Virus record (IMG/VR): IMGVR_UViG_3300031772_000079
Span: 1-42,299 of that record
Reading direction: 5' to 3' (one strand)
Source of the DNA: a virus
Length of the DNA: 42,299 nt
Shown here: piece after piece, positions 2,844 through 30,256 of the stretch
Position numbering within the stretch: position 1 is the stretch's first letter
Layout: the number at the start of each line of letters is the position of its first letter
Notes under the pieces: generated by a model
What the model was told of the DNA's origin: nothing
What the model saw: only the letters and a program-made list of their open reading frames with translations
Databases searched by the model: none
Program-made: the position numbers and the translations under genes

Positions 2844-2869
2844 GTATGAAAAAATTCAAATTTTTATAT

Positions 2870-3023
2870 AGTGTTTCTTACGATGTAAATCAATTTAATG
2901 TCGAAATATACCAAAAAATTAAATTTTTGAATTATTTTTTATATTATAACTCATTATATTATAAGGAATTATAGAGATGATAAAAAATATTTTAAAAAAA
3001 TATTAAAAAGTTGATGTATTTTT
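2870..3023 (+). repeat. 154-bp direct repeat, copy 2
   Basis: This is the second copy of the element at 1689-1842, offset by 1,181 bases and about 97% identical by eye. Similarity extends loosely through an AACAA-rich leader into the ATGAAACAG start of the gene at 3087. The two copies bracket a four-gene cassette. Confidence 0.85.
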
Positions 3024-3086
3024 TATATTTTTAATGTATATTATATAGTAGATAGTAATTAATAACAATAACAAAAGGGGTTTGAA

Positions 3087-5114: not shown

Positions 5115-5189
5115 TATATTTGATGATTAATATAGTTTTAATACTATAGATTTACTAATTAATAATTTTTTGAATTTTTGGAGGTAGGT

Positions 5190-5441
5190 ATGAAAATTGT
5201 GAGCAGTAAACCAATTGTTGTGAGGAGTAGATCAGAGAAAAAAGTTGATAAATTGGTAATTGATAAAGTGCTGGATAAGCCAGTTACTAATACAGGTCGT
5301 GTTAGTTCTATTGGATTGGTAATAAATTTACTAAATGGAGATGAAAAACTAACAAAACAACAAATAGTAGCTAAAGTAAAAAGTACGTTTAAAAATTTAG
5401 AAACTGTTGAGATTGAAAAGCTTATAAAGGAATATGAATAA
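5190..5441 (+). CDS. Small protein related to the gene at 4451
   Basis: The 83-residue product starts at ATG 5190, eight bases after GGAGG. An in-frame TTG at 5178 overlaps the ribosome site and is less likely. It begins MKIVSSKPIVVRSRSEKK, a basic stretch. The C-terminal half (about residues 40-83: SIGLVINLL, then TKQQIVAKVKSTF) follows the same pattern as the central domain of the protein at 4451. A small winged-helix-type fold is plausible. Function is unknown; proximity to the helicase suggests DNA work. Confidence 0.65.
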   Translation: MKIVSSKPIVVRSRSEKKVDKLVIDKVLDKPVTNTGRVSSIGLVINLLNGDEKLTKQQIVAKVKSTFKNLETVEIEKLIKEYE

Positions 5442-5474
5442 TATTCTTTATATGTAAACCTGAAACGGGAGTTT

Positions 5475-6818
5475 ATGAAAAAATTAGATTCAAATCAATT
5501 AAAGATGTACAAATATTGTTGTTCTGTAAACAATCCTTTACTATTCGTAGATATGCGTATGGGTAAATCGATTGTTACAATACGCTGGGTAAAAACGATA
5601 ATTGATTCGGGTTTAGTCCTGATTACATGCCCGTATTCAGGGATTTTTGGTTGGGTTGACGAATTAAGGAATGAGGGGGAAAATGATATTATACTTGCTA
5701 TTGGTAGTAAAGAATCCAGAATGTCAATGGCGTGTCGATTGATATTTGATATTGATACGCATATTCGATGGGTATTAACAAATCCAGAATGTCATAGAAG
5801 TTGCGCGCAAGTGCTAAATAAACCCTATAAAGTGTGGATTGCGGATGAAGCGACTTATTTACAAAATTATACATCTAAAACGTCACAATACTATTTTAAG
5901 AATACTTCACATATTCAACATAAAATTGCTTTGACTGGTACACCTGCAACAGAAGGGGAACAACAATTTTTTATGTTATGTAAAATAATCGAAAGCAATT
6001 GTTTTTTAGAAGGGAATTATTATCAATTTATAAATTCAAATTTCGGTAAACTCCCTAATCATCAACTTATTTTGAATGCAAGAGGGGGAAAATATATTAC
6101 AGATAGACTATCAAAATATGCATTATTTATGTCGCGAAAAGATTTTAATGTTGGGGGGAAAATTACAAGGGTAACAAGATTTTCTTCAATATCTAAAATT
6201 AATGATATATATAGAAAGACAGAAAGAGAATTTATTTTAGAAATTAAGGAACAGGATATTTATAAAGAGACAATTTGGGCGACTAAAAAATGGTTATGGT
6301 TGAGAAGGTTGTGCAGTGGGATTATTGACAATATAGTTATTGATAGTACAAAATTAGATGATCTAAAAAATTTGATTATTTCTGAATTTCACAAAAAACA
6401 AGTTTTGATTTGGGCAATTTATCACGAGGAAATAGACAATATCTATAGTTATTTAAAGAGTAAATTTGAAGTTGTGAAGATTGATGGACGCATGAAACCT
6501 CTACAAAGAGAAGCAGCAAGAAGATCATTCATGAATAAAGATGTGAACATAGTGATAGGAAACCCTTATGCATTGCGGTTCGGGGCGGATTTCTCTATTG
6601 CGCAAGTGGTAATTTACTTTTCTCTTCCAGTGTCTGGATTGACATATGCACAGAGTGAAGCGCGTCCGATTAATATAAGAACGAATAACGATTTATTAAT
6701 AATTTATATGTTAAGAGAAAAATCGGTTGAGGTTGATATATTCAATTCGGTTATTAAAAAAGAGAATAGAAGAGATACATTGAGGAATATAATTAAAGGA
6801 TTGAGGGAAAGGAATTGA
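5475..6818 (+). CDS. Superfamily 2 (DEAD-like/SNF2-type) helicase
   Basis: This is a DNA-dependent ATPase of helicase superfamily 2. The Walker A variant FVDMRMGKS lies near residue 24, motif II is IADEAT near residue 132, and motif III is ALTGTPA near residue 154. The C-terminal helicase lobe includes VLIWAIYHEE, KIDGRMKPLQREAARRSF and an Arg-finger-like SEARPINIRT near residue 395. At 447 residues it is compact, typical of phage SNF2-like helicases. It probably remodels or unwinds DNA during replication or recombination. It starts 33 bases after the small gene at 5190, with GGGAG upstream. Confidence 0.85.
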   Translation: MKKLDSNQLKMYKYCCSVNNPLLFVDMRMGKSIVTIRWVKTIIDSGLVLITCPYSGIFGWVDELRNEGENDIILAIGSKESRMSMACRLIFDIDTHIRWVLTNPECHRSCAQVLNKPYKVWIADEATYLQNYTSKTSQYYFKNTSHIQHKIALTGTPATEGEQQFFMLCKIIESNCFLEGNYYQFINSNFGKLPNHQLILNARGGKYITDRLSKYALFMSRKDFNVGGKITRVTRFSSISKINDIYRKTEREFILEIKEQDIYKETIWATKKWLWLRRLCSGIIDNIVIDSTKLDDLKNLIISEFHKKQVLIWAIYHEEIDNIYSYLKSKFEVVKIDGRMKPLQREAARRSFMNKDVNIVIGNPYALRFGADFSIAQVVIYFSLPVSGLTYAQSEARPINIRTNNDLLIIYMLREKSVEVDIFNSVIKKENRRDTLRNIIKGLRERN

Positions 6819-6823
6819 CAATA

Positions 6824-7126
6824 ATGATACAAATTGAGTACAAGTGTGGTTGTAAAGAAATGAATTTTGATTATGGAAAGTGCCCTATACATCAAAAGGA
6901 TTTAGTAAAAAGATTTAAGATTGATAATGTTTTATTAGCTAAAATTAGAGCACAGATTGAGCTAATGACAACAGAAAACATGCTTGCAGTGAATGAGATT
7001 GAGGAATTACAAGAGAGATTAGATTTACAAATGGATTTATCAAAATTTGATAATTGGAAGAAATGGAATAGTATAGAAGCTCTGGAAGTGGATTGTTATT
7101 TATCAATTTTACAGAAAGGGAAATAA
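6824..7126 (+). CDS. Hypothetical protein with Cys/His motif and coiled coil
   Basis: The 100-residue product starts at ATG 6824; the in-frame TTG at 6815 overlaps the helicase stop and is a weaker choice. The N-terminus has CGC and CPIH (about residues 8-23), a possible zinc site. A predicted helical coiled-coil stretch follows (about residues 40-75). No family is recognised. It lies between the helicase and an RNase H-fold nuclease, two bases before the latter. Confidence 0.6.
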   Translation: MIQIEYKCGCKEMNFDYGKCPIHQKDLVKRFKIDNVLLAKIRAQIELMTTENMLAVNEIEELQERLDLQMDLSKFDNWKKWNSIEALEVDCYLSILQKGK

Positions 7127-7127
7127 T

Positions 7128-7748
7128 ATGAGTATAACTTCTGATTGTGTGCTGAAAGCATATAATTTTAATATTAAAAAAACAACTAATTTATGGAATG
7201 AGTATGATAATACTCTCTTTGTAGATCCTGGATTTAATACAGGTATGGCGTATTGTTCACCAAGAAATGAATTAATAGAAGTAGAGGTGGTAACAATAAA
7301 AGAAGTTTCCCCTTTGTATACTTTAGAATATAGATATGAAAGATTAATGTCAATGTTCAGGCAATATGTCAAGGATAAAAATATTTTTAATATCATTTGT
7401 GAAGATATTTTTATGCGTCCGAATAGTACTCGAAGTATGGAAGCAGCATTATCCCAGAGTCTTTTTAAGACAACAAATATTATCGGAATGTATAGAGCAG
7501 TTGCATTAATGGAAGGATTTACTTTTAGCACTATTCATGCTCATGAATGGCGAGGGAGTATGAATGACAAAGTTGTAAAGTTACGGTTAGAAAAAAAACT
7601 ATATCCCTTGATTTATATTAAAAAATCGATAAAATTAGGTTCATTGACAATTAACAATAAATCCTTTGACAAATCAATATTAAATTCTCATGTTTGTTCT
7701 GCTTTGGGAATGATGCTCCATTCAGTAAAGTTGCTAAATAAGGAATAA
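7128..7748 (+). CDS. RuvC-like (RNase H-fold) nuclease
   Basis: The 206-residue product has the layout of phage RuvC-type Holliday-junction nucleases: a first acidic strand LFVDPGFNTGMAY (about residue 29), a second acidic position CEDIFMRPN (about residue 91), and a C-terminal helix NSHVCSALGMML (about residues 185-196). RuvC relatives usually carry Asp where this last motif has Ser, so one catalytic acid may be missing or displaced. The likely role is junction resolution or trimming before packaging. It sits among recombination genes. Confidence 0.65.
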   Translation: MSITSDCVLKAYNFNIKKTTNLWNEYDNTLFVDPGFNTGMAYCSPRNELIEVEVVTIKEVSPLYTLEYRYERLMSMFRQYVKDKNIFNIICEDIFMRPNSTRSMEAALSQSLFKTTNIIGMYRAVALMEGFTFSTIHAHEWRGSMNDKVVKLRLEKKLYPLIYIKKSIKLGSLTINNKSFDKSILNSHVCSALGMMLHSVKLLNKE

Positions 7749-16208: not shown

Positions 16209-16382
16209 ATGTCAAAAATTAATTTGTGCGATCATTGTATTAGGTGGGCAGAGTTTCCACTTTGTATAGATAGATATGTTGAGTTTGGAGATGGGGTAGG
16301 TAATGACAATATTATAAAATGTAATAGGTATATACGAATTGATGAAAGTGTAGGAGGAACAAATGATAATATTAACGAGTAA
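16209..16382 (+). CDS. Small cysteine-rich protein
   Basis: The 57-residue product starts at ATG 16209, after AAAGGAG at 16194-16200. It contains CDHC at residues 7-10, then a Cys near residue 18 and another near residue 38, so a small zinc site is possible. It overlaps the QueD-like gene by 20 bases. No family is recognised. Position suggests a link to the modification genes. Confidence 0.55.
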   Translation: MSKINLCDHCIRWAEFPLCIDRYVEFGDGVGNDNIIKCNRYIRIDESVGGTNDNINE

Positions 16383-16851
16383 ATTTACGTTTGAATCGGC
16401 ACATAGATTATTTCTTTATAATGGGGATTCTGCAAATATTCATGGCCATTCATACAAAGTAGAAATTTCAATTGATGCAGAAGTTTGTGAAGAATCTAAT
16501 GTTCAAACAAATTTATTTAATGAACAGAAGGAAATAAACTATCCAGGTATCACAATTGATTTTACTTATTTAAAGTGTGTAATAGGTAATTATATAAAAA
16601 ATAAATATGATCATTCTCTTTTATTAAATAATGAAGATTCCCTAAAAGAAGTTATTGGAGAATATACAGATAAGATAGTATATTTTGACTCTAATCCAAC
16701 AGAGGAAATAATATCAATAAAATTATTTAAAGAAATAAGTGGTATTCTTTTACAAAAAGGAATTAATGGTACTTTACAAAGTGTATCTTTATGGAGTACA
16801 GAGGATAATTGTGCCATTGCAATAATTGATTCAATAATAGAGGAAATTTAA
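16363..16851 (+). CDS. queD-like: QueD-like (6-pyruvoyl-tetrahydropterin synthase family) protein with altered active site
   Basis: The 162-residue product has the QueD/PTPS fold: FESAHRL (zinc His14) and NIHGHSYKV (His27, His29), TIDFTYLK, and DH at residues 83-84. QueD normally turns dihydroneopterin triphosphate into 6-carboxytetrahydropterin in 7-deazaguanine synthesis. Two key residues differ. Ser23 stands where QueD has its catalytic Cys, four before the HGH motif. Ser145 in WST stands where the substrate-binding Glu normally sits. The zinc ligands and the Asp-His pair are kept. The fold is clear, but the reaction is uncertain. AGGAGG precedes the ATG. Confidence 0.8.
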   Translation: MIILTSKFTFESAHRLFLYNGDSANIHGHSYKVEISIDAEVCEESNVQTNLFNEQKEINYPGITIDFTYLKCVIGNYIKNKYDHSLLLNNEDSLKEVIGEYTDKIVYFDSNPTEEIISIKLFKEISGILLQKGINGTLQSVSLWSTEDNCAIAIIDSIIEEI

Positions 16852-16886
16852 CTTTCTATAAAAAATTAACTTTTTGGAGTATTGAC

Positions 16887-17651
16887 ATGATAGTAATTAA
16901 TGATATTTTTTATTCGATTCAAGGTGAAGGTTACTACATCGGCACACCGGCAATTTTTGTACGTACCCAGGGGTGTAATTTACGATGTGGATTTTGTGAT
17001 ACAAAAGAAGCACAAGAAAGAGAGATAAAAAATTCTTTGTCTCAATGGTATACCTCTGATTTAGCGAGAAAATTGGTGGGTATGATAATTGAGCATAAAT
17101 GTAATTATATTGTATTTACAGGAGGGGAACCATTATTATTAAGGGAAAATTTAGGGGATTTGATTTATCTTATTGACGAAGAGATAAAAAGTCAAATTGG
17201 AATTTACAAAGCGAACCAATTACATTACGGAATAGAAACTAATGGTTCGCTGGATTTGGCAGAATGTGCAATAAAACCTTATCACTGGAAACAAATATCC
17301 ATTTGTCTATCCCCAAAAGTCAATAAAGGAAATCCAAGTTATATAGATTCCTCATTTTATGCCCATTGTATTTACGAAAAAAATAATTTTAAAAGAGTAT
17401 CGCTCAAATTATTGTATCCTTTTTATTTACTCTATGGTAAAGAGTACACGGCTTTACATTTTGATGATCATTATGTGCAACCACTTGTCGTAGATGTAGA
17501 ATATAATCTTTTTAGAACTGTCGAGAAAACACATAGTGAATGGATAGATTACTATTCTCTTGCATGTAAACAACTTATTACTGATTTAAATAAATTCGGT
17601 AGTATGTGGAAATTATCTATACAATTACAAAAATTATTAGGAATAAAGTGA
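16887..17651 (+). CDS. queE: QueE, 7-carboxy-7-deazaguanine synthase (radical SAM)
   Basis: The 254-residue product is a radical SAM enzyme of the QueE type, which converts 6-carboxytetrahydropterin to 7-carboxy-7-deazaguanine. Visible motifs are YSIQGEG near residue 10, the cluster motif CNLRCGFCDT (CX3CX2C, about residues 31-40), TGGEPL near residue 79, ETNGS near residue 118 and SPKVN near residue 145. All iron-sulphur cysteines are present, so unlike its neighbours it looks intact. It starts 35 bases after the QueD-like gene. Confidence 0.88.
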   Translation: MIVINDIFYSIQGEGYYIGTPAIFVRTQGCNLRCGFCDTKEAQEREIKNSLSQWYTSDLARKLVGMIIEHKCNYIVFTGGEPLLLRENLGDLIYLIDEEIKSQIGIYKANQLHYGIETNGSLDLAECAIKPYHWKQISICLSPKVNKGNPSYIDSSFYAHCIYEKNNFKRVSLKLLYPFYLLYGKEYTALHFDDHYVQPLVVDVEYNLFRTVEKTHSEWIDYYSLACKQLITDLNKFGSMWKLSIQLQKLLGIK

Positions 17652-17658
17652 GGTCGGT

Positions 17659-18663
17659 ATGAAAGTATATGTTGTTTCAGAGAATGAGTTTTTGACGTTA
17701 AGTCTTAAATTATATGAAAAAATACTCAATAAATTAAAGGAATGGGAAAGTTTTAATTGTACTCAAGATATTTTACACAAAGTGCAAATCGCTAATGATT
17801 TTCCAGGTAAAACGTGTGCAAAAGTAACTATCCACGGAATACCTAATAGTGGAGTACCGGTAGCATATAATATAGTTAGTTTACTTAATGATAATCCAGA
17901 ATTTAGATTAAAATACTATGCAACAGTTTCATTTAAACCAACTTCTAATTTTATTGTTGATATTATAAGAGACTCTGGAAAGACAAAAGAGCAGTACTCT
18001 AAAATAATACATGATCCTGATTGTTTCTTTGCTCTGATTGATAAAAAAGAAAGTGGTTTAACTGATTATTGGATAAAATTTCCCTGGGAAACTGATATTG
18101 ATAAAATTGAAGCTTTACCGGAGGATATACCTTTACAATTTTTACAGTACATAGGGGAAGATCCAAAACGGGAAGGTTTACTTGGAACACCTTCCAGGGT
18201 TATTGATCTTTGGAATTATCAATACTCTGGGTATAATGTTGATATAGAGGGATTATTTATAAATTCAAGTGAATCAAATATTGATAAAATGATAGTACTT
18301 GATAATTTGGAATATTATAGTACCTGTGAATGTCATTTATTACCAATTTTTGGTAAATGTTATATAGGGTATATTCCAAATAAAAAAATAATAGAAGTAA
18401 GTAAATTAATCCAATTAGTAGACGCCTTCTCCCAGCGTTTACAAATGCAAGAAAATTTGACTCAACAAATTGCAGGAGCGATTATGAAATATTTGGAACC
18501 TATGGGAGTAGGTGTAATTATGACCGGTAATAGTATGTGTATGCGTATGGTTTCACAGGGTATACAAAAACAAGAGCCCACTTTAAAAACTTTTGCTGTA
18601 TTAGGAGCATTCAAAGAATTTGTTGGAGCTCGCAATGAGTTTTTAAATCTTATAGCTTTGTAA
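17659..18663 (+). CDS. folE-like: Phosphoribosyltransferase fused to GTP cyclohydrolase I-like domain, altered catalytic residues
   Basis: This 334-residue product joins two domains. Residues about 55-145 look like a type I phosphoribosyltransferase: HGIPNSGVP (59-67), the PRPP-binding pattern FIVDIIRDSGKT (98-109) and WIKFPWE (138-144). Residues about 160-334 match GTP cyclohydrolase I (FolE): GTPSRV, YSTCECHLLP, YIPNKK, SKLIQLVDAFSQRLQMQE and NSMCMRM. FolE zinc ligands map to Cys223, His226 and Cys294. The catalytic His of CEHH is Cys225, and the second catalytic His (HxC motif) is Ser292. The domain may therefore stop at an intermediate or catalyse another reaction. It follows QueE by seven bases. 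Confidence 0.82.
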   Translation: MKVYVVSENEFLTLSLKLYEKILNKLKEWESFNCTQDILHKVQIANDFPGKTCAKVTIHGIPNSGVPVAYNIVSLLNDNPEFRLKYYATVSFKPTSNFIVDIIRDSGKTKEQYSKIIHDPDCFFALIDKKESGLTDYWIKFPWETDIDKIEALPEDIPLQFLQYIGEDPKREGLLGTPSRVIDLWNYQYSGYNVDIEGLFINSSESNIDKMIVLDNLEYYSTCECHLLPIFGKCYIGYIPNKKIIEVSKLIQLVDAFSQRLQMQENLTQQIAGAIMKYLEPMGVGVIMTGNSMCMRMVSQGIQKQEPTLKTFAVLGAFKEFVGARNEFLNLIAL

Positions 18664-19318: not shown

Positions 19319-19460
19319 AAAACGACGTAAAAACGACCGGTACTTACCCCCTACCGTAGGTATATAAATTTATAATGCGCAACCAATATTTTTTTTATTA
19401 TATATTATATTAATTTGGGTATATATGCCAGGGGGTAATAGACGGTCGATTTTCTGGCAA
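19319..19460. promoter_or_regulatory. Control region B: same modules as region A
   Basis: This lies in the 240-base gap 19265-19504. It contains CGACG and ACGACCG (about 19323-19339), TACCCCCTACCGTAGGTA (about 19345-19362) and an AT-rich core CGCAACCAATATTTTTTTTA (19378-19397). GGGGTAATAGACGGTC follows (19432-19447), the reverse complement of a 15-base string in region A. ACGGTCGATTTT (19442-19453) is the reverse complement of AAAATCGACCGT at 1516. It is a candidate origin or operator region preceding the clamp-like gene. Confidence 0.55.
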
Positions 19461-19504
19461 TTTATATTTTTTATATTTTTATACTTTTTATATTTAGGAG
19501 GATT

Positions 19505-25684: not shown

Positions 25685-26584
25685 ATGCTTAATTTACCAA
25701 ATAAAATAAAAAGAATTCCCCGTGTCCCAAAAATAAAAAGTGTAAAATTATTTGAAGAGCAGTATGCTTTACTTGTTGGAGGTATAGTAGATAATATTCG
25801 AGAACATTTTGAAAGAATGATACTACCATACATCGAACAGATATCTTTATCTGCACAGGCAGAGGGTTTAACAGTTAAAAAAGACTCTTGGGACGACCAA
25901 CTTGAGCAACTAATGACAGCGTTTAATTTATCTCTTTCCAGAGATATGGATATTAACAAAACAAGAGCAACAATTCAGCTAATAGGAGCAAGTGTAAATA
26001 AACAAAATAGTGAGGAATTACAAAGAGTAATAAAACAAATGTTCAATATTGGCATGAGGAATTATGAACCTTGGCTTAAATCAATGATGACTTCTTTTCT
26101 GAAAGAGGGAGTATCTCTGGTAAAGGATTTATCAGTAAAGACAGAAAAGGAATTATTCACTCTTATACAAAGAGATATTAAACAGGGGAAAAGGGTTGAG
26201 ACTATAAAAAAGGAAATATTGACAGGTACTGAACTAAAAGCGGGATATTTTAATTCTGTCAAGACAAGAGCCGAATTGATAGCGCGCGATCAAGTAGGGA
26301 AACTCAATGGTCAATTAAACAGAATGAGACAAAAGGATATTGGTATCACTCTTTATATTTGGCGGACTTCTGATGATGAACGAGTAAGAGGTACACATGA
26401 ACCACTAAATGGTAAAGTTTGCAGTTGGGAAGATCCTACCATATACGCTGATTCGGTAGAAGAAGCAATGGAAGGGAAATGGAAATCTCGTTCGTCAATT
26501 AATGGATTTATAGGTGAACCAGGGGAAGATTATCAATGTCGATGTAATGGGGAACCAGTCTTTAATACTATTTTGGAGCAATAG
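25685..26584 (+). CDS. MuF-like head morphogenesis protein
   Basis: The 299-residue product carries the MuF C-terminal domain: ARDQVGKLNGQLN near residue 200, TSDDERVRGTHEPLNGK near residue 232 and PGEDYQCRCNGEPV near residue 280. MuF proteins are minor head components packaged at the portal vertex. The N-terminal part is helical. AGAGG lies upstream of the ATG, and the gene follows the portal by six bases. Confidence 0.85.
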   Translation: MLNLPNKIKRIPRVPKIKSVKLFEEQYALLVGGIVDNIREHFERMILPYIEQISLSAQAEGLTVKKDSWDDQLEQLMTAFNLSLSRDMDINKTRATIQLIGASVNKQNSEELQRVIKQMFNIGMRNYEPWLKSMMTSFLKEGVSLVKDLSVKTEKELFTLIQRDIKQGKRVETIKKEILTGTELKAGYFNSVKTRAELIARDQVGKLNGQLNRMRQKDIGITLYIWRTSDDERVRGTHEPLNGKVCSWEDPTIYADSVEEAMEGKWKSRSSINGFIGEPGEDYQCRCNGEPVFNTILEQ

Positions 26585-26585
26585 C

Positions 26586-26792
26586 ATGTGTAAAGAAGAG
26601 ATTGATATATCAAAGACTTTTGTCTTTCTAAGAGATACAATCAAGAGCTATCTTGATCAAGAGATACAAGGTAAGAAATTTAAAGGAACTATTATTATTG
26701 AATTTAATTGTATTGATGGGAATATCGGTAGTTTTTCCACAACAGTAACAAAAAATTATAATAAAAATGATTCAAATGAAATTAAGTATTGA
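26586..26792 (+). CDS. Hypothetical 68-residue protein
   Basis: A small protein starting MCKEEIDISKTFVFL, with GGAGC upstream; ATG 26586 is preferred to earlier in-frame starts inside the MuF gene. The second half is beta-rich (KFKGTIIIEFNCIDGNIGSF). No family is recognised. Its stop codon overlaps the -35 box of the promoter at 26789. Confidence 0.6.
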   Translation: MCKEEIDISKTFVFLRDTIKSYLDQEIQGKKFKGTIIIEFNCIDGNIGSFSTTVTKNYNKNDSNEIKY

Positions 26793-26817
26793 CTTTTTTC
26801 AAAAATTAGTATATATT
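26789..26817 (+). promoter_or_regulatory. Strong sigma70-type promoter for a short RNA
   Basis: TTGACT (26789-26794), a 17-base spacer and TATATT (26812-26817) match a sigma70 promoter well. The expected start is about 26824. A terminator-like stem ends about 170 bases downstream, before the next gene. Confidence 0.65.
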
Positions 26818-26823
26818 TATATC

Positions 26824-26993
26824 TGAAACGAATTGGAATGCTATCAAGTCTCGAAAGAGTGTACTGAAAAGCCCAAGTAGTTTTAATATTAGATTTTTGT
26901 TATTTAATCAATGGTGTATACAGGTGATACCTTTGTACTGTTGGTAAATTAATGAAAAATCTTTTATTAGAACTATTTGGGCTTTTCGTTTTT
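26824..26993 (+). ncRNA. Candidate structured non-coding RNA (about 170 nt)
   Basis: Between the promoter at 26789 and the protease gene lies a fully non-coding, highly paired segment. The outer arms GAAAAGCCCAAGTAGTT (26866-26882) and AACTATTTGGGCTTTTC (26971-26987) pair over 17 bp with one G-U. Pairing continues inward with a few mismatches to about 26893/26960. A second stem pairs 26902-26911 with 26941-26949 (one bulge). An apical hairpin pairs 26919-26925 with 26929-26937. Near the 5' end, CTCGAAAGAG (26849-26858) can form a GNRA-type tetraloop hairpin. A T-run (GTTTTTT) follows the outer stem, so the unit looks like a discrete transcript. I recognise no known RNA family. Confidence 0.55.
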
Positions 26994-26994
26994 T
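26971..26994 (+). terminator. Terminator formed by the long outer stem
   Basis: The right arm of the 17-bp inverted repeat (partner at 26866-26882) is followed immediately by GTTTTTTG. The loop between the arms is 88 nt but is itself paired, so the structure may act as terminator or attenuator ahead of the head genes. Confidence 0.6.
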
Positions 26995-27010: not shown

Positions 27011-28441
27011 ATGCCATACCCGAATGAGTTTGCAGCAAGAATAAATGAACCTGGGAAGTATAAAGATATTAAGCGCGAAAATAATAAATTCGGGCAGGGT
27101 ATCGATGTGATATGGGGAATTACAGAAGAGGGAAAAACAGAAGTACAAGCGATAAGATTCAACAAAAAAAAGTTTTCCAGTGAAGAGGTCAATTCTTGGT
27201 TGAAAAAAAATAAATATTCTCCTATTAAAGTCGAAGCGCCTTCGCAATCTAATGATGCAATGCAAGAAGCAATCCTTTATGACAAGTTGGGAGCAATTCA
27301 GGTTGACATAGATCAAGTTGACTTTGTGCCAATTAACATAAAAGGGGAGTTTGAAACCACTCCGGAAGGTTTCATGAAATTTGTTGCTCCCGTTGCAAAA
27401 GTAGGAATATATCAATATACTTTACCTGATGGAACTATACGAAGAGATTTAGTTGATGAAGAGACATTATTTGATACTAAGTCTATGAAATCATTGGAGT
27501 TAAAACCATTTACAAATGAACATCCAAATAATTTACTTGATACCGAAAATGTAAAAAGACATTCGGTTGGTTCAACAGGAGAAAAAGTTTACAAAGATGA
27601 AAATCGTCTTATGTCAAGTTTAGTAATTATGGATGCAAAAGCAATTCAAGATGTTAAGAACGGTAAACGCCAACTTTCTCCAGGGTATAAGACTACTTTA
27701 ATATTAGAATCTGGTACTTTTAATGGTCAATCGTATGATGCAATACAACGAAATCGCGTATACAACCACTTGGCATTATGCACCAAAGCAAGAGGAGGAA
27801 ATACGCTTTCGTTGACAATGGATAGTGTAAAAGGAGATAGTTTTACAAATAATAATATTTCAAATTCAAATAAAGGAGTAACTATGTTACCAAAGTTTAT
27901 GTTAAATGGTATTGATTATGAAGCTTCACAAGAGGTGATAAATCACGTAGATACCTTAGCTAAGAAATTATCCCAAATTGAGCAACAATATACTGTTCAA
28001 AAAGATAGTTTTGATAAAGCAACTAAAAGTTTACAAGAAGTACAAAGCGCTTTTGATACTTATAAGGCAAATGTTCCTAATCTGATAAAACAATCGGTTA
28101 TCGAAAGAACACGTCTGGAAAAACTTGCATCTTTGGTGCTTGATGCAACAGAATTGACAGATATGCCAAAAGTGGATAATGTTGTATTAAAATCAAGAAT
28201 GATTAAAGCGAAATATCCTTCCCTTAATATTACTGGGAAAGATGAAGCTTATGTAAGCGCTTTAGTTGATTCTCTTGAAAGTCAACTTGGAGATACTTCT
28301 ATTAAAGATCAAATTGATCTGCTTACTAAAACTTCAAGAAAACAAGTAAATCAAAATATAGTTGACTCTGCAAAAAGTCGTGAACAATATGCACAGAGTT
28401 TAAGCAGCGCCTGGCAAGTAAATCCACGAACAGGCAAATAA
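27011..28441 (+). CDS. DUF2213-type prohead protease with C-terminal scaffold
   Basis: The 476-residue product begins with MPYPNEFAARINEPGKYKDI, a conserved phage head N-terminal module (to about residue 75). A DUF2213-like protease region follows at about residues 95-265, with ETLFDTKSMKSLELKPFTNEHP (about 147-168, cited by position) and QLSPGYKT near residue 218. After a Ser/Asn-rich linker (about residues 278-290), the remaining 185 residues are a coiled-coil scaffold-like region (LAKKLSQIEQQYTVQKDSF). It precedes the cement and capsid genes. A nested start is described separately. Confidence 0.82.
   Translation: MPYPNEFAARINEPGKYKDIKRENNKFGQGIDVIWGITEEGKTEVQAIRFNKKKFSSEEVNSWLKKNKYSPIKVEAPSQSNDAMQEAILYDKLGAIQVDIDQVDFVPINIKGEFETTPEGFMKFVAPVAKVGIYQYTLPDGTIRRDLVDEETLFDTKSMKSLELKPFTNEHPNNLLDTENVKRHSVGSTGEKVYKDENRLMSSLVIMDAKAIQDVKNGKRQLSPGYKTTLILESGTFNGQSYDAIQRNRVYNHLALCTKARGGNTLSLTMDSVKGDSFTNNNISNSNKGVTMLPKFMLNGIDYEASQEVINHVDTLAKKLSQIEQQYTVQKDSFDKATKSLQEVQSAFDTYKANVPNLIKQSVIERTRLEKLASLVLDATELTDMPKVDNVVLKSRMIKAKYPSLNITGKDEAYVSALVDSLESQLGDTSIKDQIDLLTKTSRKQVNQNIVDSAKSREQYAQSLSSAWQVNPRTGK
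27884..28441 (+). CDS. Nested capsid scaffold protein from internal start
   Basis: Inside the protease gene, AAAGGAG (27872-27878) precedes an in-frame ATG at 27884 with good spacing. It would yield a 185-residue protein (MLPKFMLNGIDYEASQEV...), exactly the coiled-coil scaffold portion after the Asn/Ser linker. Phage lambda makes its scaffold Nu3 from inside the protease gene C in the same way. The internal ribosome site and domain boundary are visible; expression is inferred. Confidence 0.6.
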   Translation: MLPKFMLNGIDYEASQEVINHVDTLAKKLSQIEQQYTVQKDSFDKATKSLQEVQSAFDTYKANVPNLIKQSVIERTRLEKLASLVLDATELTDMPKVDNVVLKSRMIKAKYPSLNITGKDEAYVSALVDSLESQLGDTSIKDQIDLLTKTSRKQVNQNIVDSAKSREQYAQSLSSAWQVNPRTGK

Positions 28442-29311: not shown

Positions 29312-30256
29312 ATGATCAGACAACAACAGTTTGTCAATTTGGATGCAAACGAGACAGTGTTTTTTCTTAGGGAGTTAGAATTTGTAAAGGCACAAGTTTA
29401 CAATAAACAATATCCAGAATACATTTGGCAATACCTTTTCCCAGTGGATAGCAGTGCGGGAGCAGGTGCAGAAGCGATTACATACCGCTCTTACGATAGT
29501 GTGGGTGTAATGAAGCTAATGTCAAGTTATTCAGACGATGCTCCAAGATCGGATGTATTTGCAAAGGAATTTACTGCAACAGTAAAATCAATACGCGGTG
29601 CTTATGGATATTCTATCCAGGATGTACGTGCGGCAATTTTCCAGAATAAACCCTTAAAAACCCTAAAAGCGGATGCTGCTATGTTAGCATATATGCAAGC
29701 CGTCAATGATATTGCTTGGTTTGCAAATGGTGGAGCAGCATATGGTGGATTATATGGCTTTCTTTACAATCCGAATACTACAAAAACCAATGCTCCTACA
29801 GGTGCATGGTTAACCGGCCCAAAATCAACAGACTTGATAATTGCGGATATTACATATGCAATTAATAGGCCAAAGTTATTGACAAAGAAAATTGAGATTG
29901 TCAATACAGTCATTCTTCCAGTGGATTGCTATGCTCATATAGCAAGTACACCAAGATCAGCGACAAGTGATACAACAATTTTGGAATTTGTACAAAGAAC
30001 AAATCCAACAGTGACCTTTCTTGATTGTAATGAAGTTTACCAAGTGAATCCAAAACCAAGCGGTGCAGCAAGTGCAACAAACTGCTTGATTGCGTATCGT
30101 AGAGATCCAATGAAACTGGAACTTTACATACCGCAACCTTTTGAGCAGTTTCCACCACAAGAGCGTAATATGGAGTATGTAATTAATACCCATGCTCGTA
30201 TCGGAGGAATAGCATTTTATTATCCATTGTCAATGATTATATTAGAGCAACTGTAA
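29312..30256 (+). CDS. Major capsid protein, DUF2184 type
   Basis: The 314-residue product fits the HK97-fold DUF2184 capsid family. Near the start is FLRELEFVKAQVYNKQYPE. IRGAYGYSIQDVRAA lies near residue 93, and a C-terminal block has IAYRRDPMKLELYIPQPFEQ and RIGGIAFYYP. AAGGAG precedes the ATG at 29312. It lies directly after protease/scaffold and cement genes and is followed by a terminator, consistent with a highly expressed gene. Confidence 0.87.
   Translation: MIRQQQFVNLDANETVFFLRELEFVKAQVYNKQYPEYIWQYLFPVDSSAGAGAEAITYRSYDSVGVMKLMSSYSDDAPRSDVFAKEFTATVKSIRGAYGYSIQDVRAAIFQNKPLKTLKADAAMLAYMQAVNDIAWFANGGAAYGGLYGFLYNPNTTKTNAPTGAWLTGPKSTDLIIADITYAINRPKLLTKKIEIVNTVILPVDCYAHIASTPRSATSDTTILEFVQRTNPTVTFLDCNEVYQVNPKPSGAASATNCLIAYRRDPMKLELYIPQPFEQFPPQERNMEYVINTHARIGGIAFYYPLSMIILEQL

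Follow-up and report, generated by a model that had tools for sequence, protein, structure and literature searches.

A predicted promoter and terminated leader RNA among the head genes of a contractile-tailed phage and its distant relatives

Main finding

The region between the MuF head-morphogenesis gene and the head maturation protease gene of a contractile-tailed phage is best explained as a promoter-proximal, terminated leader RNA by which read-through into the head genes would be gated, a reading whose chances we put at about even. The window analysed was the whole of positions 1-42,299 (42,299 nt) of the IMG/VR record IMGVR_UViG_3300031772_000079. The promoter-like site, the fold, the terminator, and the conserved order and spacing are supported as sequence predictions, and from the same analysis we infer a working promoter and terminator and regulated read-through. 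The long fold is particular to the window phage; the layout is widely shared.

Genomic context

The genes of the window, which include those for portal, MuF, a DUF2213 protease, cement, PF09950 capsid, tail sheath, tape measure and baseplate hub proteins, indicated a contractile-tailed phage. On the + strand, the MuF gene (25685-26584; Pfam Phage_Mu_F, 1.3e-14; phrog_324) lies upstream of the RNA, the protease gene (27011-28441; Pfam DUF2213, 9.9e-35; phrog_530) is the first gene past the terminator and the major capsid protein gene (29312-30256; Pfam Major_capside, 1.7e-42) is found farther downstream. Between the end of MuF at 26584 and the protease start at 27011 there is a 68-codon gene (26586-26792, + strand) followed by 218 bases without a gene. 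This small gene is conserved and ends within the -35 box of the promoter, and it had been overlooked when the DNA was previously read from its letters (hereafter the sequence-only reading).

Fold and terminator of the RNA

A short transcript of about 171 nt was predicted on the + strand at 26824-26994, its start being placed 7 nt after the -10 box. The folding energy of these 171 nt was -56.3 kcal/mol (z -7.89), and none of 200 dinucleotide shuffles (mean -28.5, sd 3.5) was as stable. Among 1686 segments of 150 nt on both strands, the RNA region was the most stable for its GC content at -6.15 sd, followed by a segment at -3.44. Folding of this interval, a check proposed in the sequence-only reading, thus placed the RNA well beyond shuffled sequences, and the inverted arms, nested stem, apical hairpin, 5' GNRA-type hairpin and T-run described there were all recovered.

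The fold starts with a 5' hairpin with a GAAA tetraloop (26847-26865, + strand; loop 26853-26856). It is followed on the same strand by a long interrupted stem-loop of 122 nt (26866-26987), the predicted terminator hairpin, which consists of an outer stem of 17 bp, nested stems and an apical loop. The outer arms (26866-26882/26971-26987) form 17 pairs including one G-U, extend to 33 nt at 88% complementarity and rank first of the 169 inverted pairs listed for the window, while further stems were folded at 26891-26898/26955-26962 and above. The T-run of the intrinsic terminator occupies 26989-26994 on the + strand (terminator score 58.5). The feature was assigned to the + strand because the minus strand folded more weakly (-37.5), because a strand-neutral alignment of the arms showed transition mismatches that read on the + strand as 6 G-U and 0 A-C, and because the T-run is present in the + orientation only. 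The transcript of about 170 nt without a gene that had been proposed earlier agrees with the 171 nt predicted here inside the gene-free 218 bases, and the predictions lend good support to describing it as a short RNA that has a promoter and terminator of its own.

Promoter in the window

A sigma-70-type promoter (TTGACT-N17-TATATT) was predicted on the + strand at 26789-26817, with the -35 box TTGACT at 26789-26794, a 17-nt spacer and the -10 box TATATT at 26812-26817. The -35 box overlaps the TGA codon (26790-26792) that ends the 68-codon ORF at 26586-26792. The near-consensus hexamers and the overlap with a preceding stop codon had already been described, and both hold at these positions, the stop being that of the small gene. 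Sigma-70-like hexamer pairs were common, with 103 sites in 20 kb compared to 94.2 in shuffles, and a weight matrix ranked the promoter at 26789-26817 fourth among the + strand sites of the whole 42 kb. Within the 120 nt before the stem, the shuffle p value of the window promoter was 0.005. Further promoter-like sites in the window may supply the downstream genes with transcripts independently, which counts against a gate.

Sequence searches with the RNA

A search of the window at the gathering score matched 0 of 4227 Rfam families, and the relaxed search gave six matches, all with microRNA-precursor models and far under their cut-offs; the RNA family search that had been suggested as a check therefore gave no credible match at either level. 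No match was found by DNA similarity to phage records. Three plasmid DNA matches were short and weak (E 0.01-0.6) and were rejected. The arm pattern was found in viral contigs only in a near-identical relative and was absent from the genome contigs.

The RNA of the near-identical contig differs at three positions, two being inserted bases and one a substitution in the long stem. The two insertions, one on each side of the 5' hairpin, add a U-A pair, which gives a single hint of support for the predicted pairing. The three changes in 171 nt (1.75%) compare with 0.2-1.0% for portal, MuF, protease, cement and major capsid protein (MCP) and are fewer than the mean of 171-nt stretches across the whole overlap of the two contigs; in this comparison, the RNA was no better conserved than the neighbouring head genes. 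A base-by-base alignment of the RNA was obtained with the near-identical relative only, all other relatives being unalignable. A leader-peptide attenuator was also considered and rejected: the frame from ATG 26838 (MLSSLERVY-stop) is shortened to MLSSL-stop by the two inserted bases of the relative.

Layout in distant relatives

Relatives were gathered by MCP searches, and most had about 30-55% identity to the capsid protein of the window. Searches of viral contigs with the protease and MuF proteins retrieved the near-identical relative only. The order found in distant uncultivated phages was MuF, small gene, promoter, 29-62 nt, intrinsic terminator and protease/capsid genes. In several relatives, a small gene of the same family is followed at this place by a promoter-like site and a terminator that differ entirely in sequence from those of the window, and the terminator hairpins of the relatives are mostly shorter at 26-66 nt (89 nt in locus L015). 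The long nested stem was found only in the window phage and its near-identical relative.

Searching with a small-protein profile retrieved 61 loci. When these were compared over their last 150 bases, 29 were distinct, including the window itself and the near-identical relative. The small gene was upstream of the protease and capsid gene in 29/29 loci and downstream of portal or MuF wherever these were found (no MuF was found in 3/29 and no portal in 7/29). A terminator scoring at least 20 was present within 330 nt past the small gene in 25 of the 29 distinct loci, compared to 2.8% of 290 dinucleotide shuffles. As for the remaining four, L066 scored 18.5, L019 and L028 showed by eye hairpins with a poorer T-run, and L069 had none. 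Strong terminators elsewhere in the 29 loci numbered five in 335 kb. Of the 83 distinct loci that lack the small gene, 11 had a terminator of score 20 or more in the interval from MuF to protease (Fisher p 1.4e-12 for loci with versus without the small gene, uncorrected for kinship and with different searched intervals). In three of these 11 (L186, L188 and L216), a different short gene was followed by a promoter and a terminator.

The promoter was assessed in 26 loci after L005 and L061 (near relatives of the window and L063) and L069 (no terminator) were dropped. It beat its own shuffles at p≤0.05 in 9/26 loci where 1.3 were expected (p 2.8e-6), and in six of the nine loci ranked, no other + strand site anywhere in the locus matched better. 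The other 17/26 loci had no promoter that beat shuffles at this level, which counts against a gate. In the 11 loci with p≤0.1, the -10 box and the stem were 38-62 bases apart.

A scan for modules with a promoter 28-80 bases before a terminator covered 133 distinct loci and 1.42 Mb. It found 14 modules between MuF and protease (151 kb), two elsewhere on the + strand and three on the minus strand. When the spacing was freed to 15-200 nt, 13 of the 14 inside modules still had a spacing of 29-62 nt. The thresholds of the terminator and module scans were set after the pattern was first seen and were checked by the counts elsewhere in the same loci, by a grid of thresholds, across which the excess between MuF and protease persisted, and by the loci added last. 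The 36 distinct loci that were new to the count after this addition, scored at a promoter score of 10 and a terminator score of 20-28, had nine modules inside (eight at a terminator score of 28), none elsewhere on the + strand and 2-3 on the minus strand.

Six of the small-gene loci (L017, L066, L077, L092, L165 and L179) have other DNA between the terminator and the protease, which also counts against a gate. Locus L006 (the same contig as L039), from a distant relative, has an interval of about 2.2 kb between MuF and protease (5127-7375) with several minus-strand ORFs, indicating that extra genes are also acquired here. A GGTTGC(T)-like stretch, sometimes followed by GTCT, was seen between promoter and terminator in L017, L199, L028, L153, L162, L019 and L020. 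Across all 26 loci the GGTTGCT leader motif was weak, the best 10-mer model having a log-likelihood (LL) of 36.4 compared to 29.1-31.3 in four shuffled sets. The leader sequences are hardly conserved, and the architecture is what is conserved. As the arrangement is conserved but the RNA sequence is not, it can be detected by layout only and would escape RNA family searches.

The small gene and its protein family

The 68-codon product belongs to a family of small proteins of about 50-70 residues with the motif FTG.I...GGI and a predicted fold of a helix and a beta hairpin. The AlphaFold2 model (pLDDT 73) placed the helix at residues 8-27 and the two strands at 34-43 and 46-56. No match was found in Pfam or NCBIfam and no convincing one in PHROGs, a search of phage records gave nothing better than E 0.6, and the structure search returned 72 matches at E≤10 and 0 at E≤0.001. 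The family was not found in eight chosen genomes or records.

The product is a candidate regulator by position only, its gene ending at the promoter as a regulator beside its site of action might, and it may instead be a virion or assembly protein given that its gene stands among head genes. The broader proposal that it is an antiterminator or leader binder acting at the promoter on its own stop codon, forming one unit with the module and gating the capsid genes across a wide range of uncultivated tailed phages, is doubtful.

Two further observations concern these loci. In L067, a minus-strand tRNA-Met (CAT) gene (2747-2821) is found between the small gene and the terminator. The modules at L186 3577-3850, L188 3480-3885 and L216 3436-3737 are preceded by a different short gene that has a comparable length and a motif of its own, and that may be distantly related to the small family or may have taken its place.

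Proposed function of the module

A strong sigma-70 promoter located exactly at the end of the conserved small gene would start a short RNA that would end by default at the intrinsic terminator, the stem of which is unusually long in this phage. From this promoter, transcription would extend into the protease, cement, major capsid and tail genes only if RNA polymerase passed the terminator. Read-through would be regulated by some factor, for which position makes the product of the small gene a candidate. Since a promoter placed before a terminator yields a short RNA unless the polymerase can pass, and since the protease, capsid and tail genes lie behind this terminator, a gate on their transcription would be the simplest function. 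The order of promoter then terminator is also the wrong one for merely separating two operons, which favours a gate. The sequence-only reading had offered an attenuator of the head genes or a new structured RNA; the first gained from the recurrence of the layout in distant relatives and the second was weakened by the phage-specific long stem.

Searches of the phage's own record, which may be a fragment, for the Q-family antiterminators PF03589 and PF06530 gave no hits, and the controls for both did match. PF06323, also of the Q family, gave none in this record, but its control matched nowhere. No shared binding element was seen by eye in the promoter spacers of the relatives.

If there is indeed a gate inside the head genes, it would add a second type of late gate, and it could allow the capsid and tail proteins, of which large amounts are required, to be controlled separately from terminase, portal and MuF. 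The family of small proteins bordering the module would then be a concrete candidate regulator.

Alternative explanations

The main rival of a gate is a dedicated small-RNA gene, the RNA of which would act in trans on host or phage messages with the terminator as its 3' end. The predicted promoter and terminator of its own, the U-tract and the stable fold are all consistent with such a gene, as are the GGTTGC-like letters common to the leaders of some relatives. PR'-tR' leader RNAs of other phages become regulatory RNAs, as reported for StxS (reviewed in PMC7873438). However, the leader is hardly conserved by the 10-mer model above, its pairing to 50 phage start regions was no better than that of shuffled leaders (fraction 0.215), and the stem locks up most of the RNA. 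This explanation is possible but clearly less probable than a gate.

An ordinary terminator that lowers downstream transcription, with a promoter-like site arising by chance in AT-rich DNA, would account for the high frequency of promoter-like hexamers and for the 17 loci where the promoter did not beat shuffles. The enrichment of promoters before these terminators at a narrow spacing and the rank of the promoter as best of its locus in six of nine cases make it unlikely.

The long imperfect inverted repeat might also be an inserted mobile palindrome, MITE-like or of another repeat type. This is very improbable, as it occurs once in the window and otherwise only in the near-identical viral contig, with no copy in the genome contigs, no phage match and only the short plasmid matches at E 0.01-0.6; moreover, its mismatches favour an RNA of the + strand (6 G-U, 0 A-C) and unrelated hairpins hold the same position in the relatives. 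A packaging RNA, which was raised in the sequence-only reading, or some other RNA with a structural role in the virion would suit the location among head genes and the high degree of structure. It is equally improbable given that no sign of a packaging RNA was seen, that there was no Rfam match and that the long fold is absent from the relatives, which mostly have short hairpins.

Comparison with known systems

In the pR'-tR' region of phage lambda, a promoter is followed by a short leader, an intrinsic terminator and the late structural genes, and a small gene ends at the promoter. The module described here resembles it in having a predicted promoter, a short leader, an intrinsic terminator and then structural genes, with a small gene ending at the promoter. 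In contrast to lambda, the module lies inside the head genes, between MuF and protease, and not before them, no Q family was found in the phage's own record, and the product of the adjoining gene has about 50-70 residues and belongs to a family with no match in the databases. The lambda region is described as a late promoter with a terminated leader RNA that is antiterminated by Q (PMC7171158).

AlpA antitermination in Pseudomonas aeruginosa belongs to a host programmed-death system in which an intrinsic terminator downstream of the promoter is reported to be bypassed to reach the operon, with the binding element between the -35 and -10 boxes (PMC7969949). AlpA operons share with the module a promoter and a downstream intrinsic terminator ahead of an operon, but no common element was seen by eye in the promoter spacers here. 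StxS is a small RNA from a phage PR'-tR' region that is produced by default termination, and its activity in trans is reported to have been shown (PMC7873438). StxS resembles the RNA predicted here, which would also be short and would be made when transcription from a late phage promoter stops by default at the terminator behind it; it differs in that the leader sequence is not conserved here and that action in trans is only a rival reading.

The P7 protein of phage Xp10 has about 73 residues. It is similar in size to the product of the small gene, a likeness of size alone. P7 is reported to allow the polymerase to pass intrinsic terminators (PMC6624301). An arrangement like the one described here was not found in the titles and abstract openings of the literature surveyed, which included few subscription papers.

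Other features of the window

Genes for PTPS (QueD-like), radical SAM (QueE-like) and GTP cyclohydrolase I/QueF-like proteins were found in a row at 16363-18663, which suggests 7-deazaguanine modification of the phage DNA. A 214-bp direct repeat (1681-1894 and 2862-3075; 92% identical) was found in AT-rich DNA including intergenic stretches. Finally, two AT-rich intergenic blocks at 1517-1611 and 19378-19463 have a 28-bp direct and a 34-bp inverted match in common, and are possibly shared promoter or replication sites.
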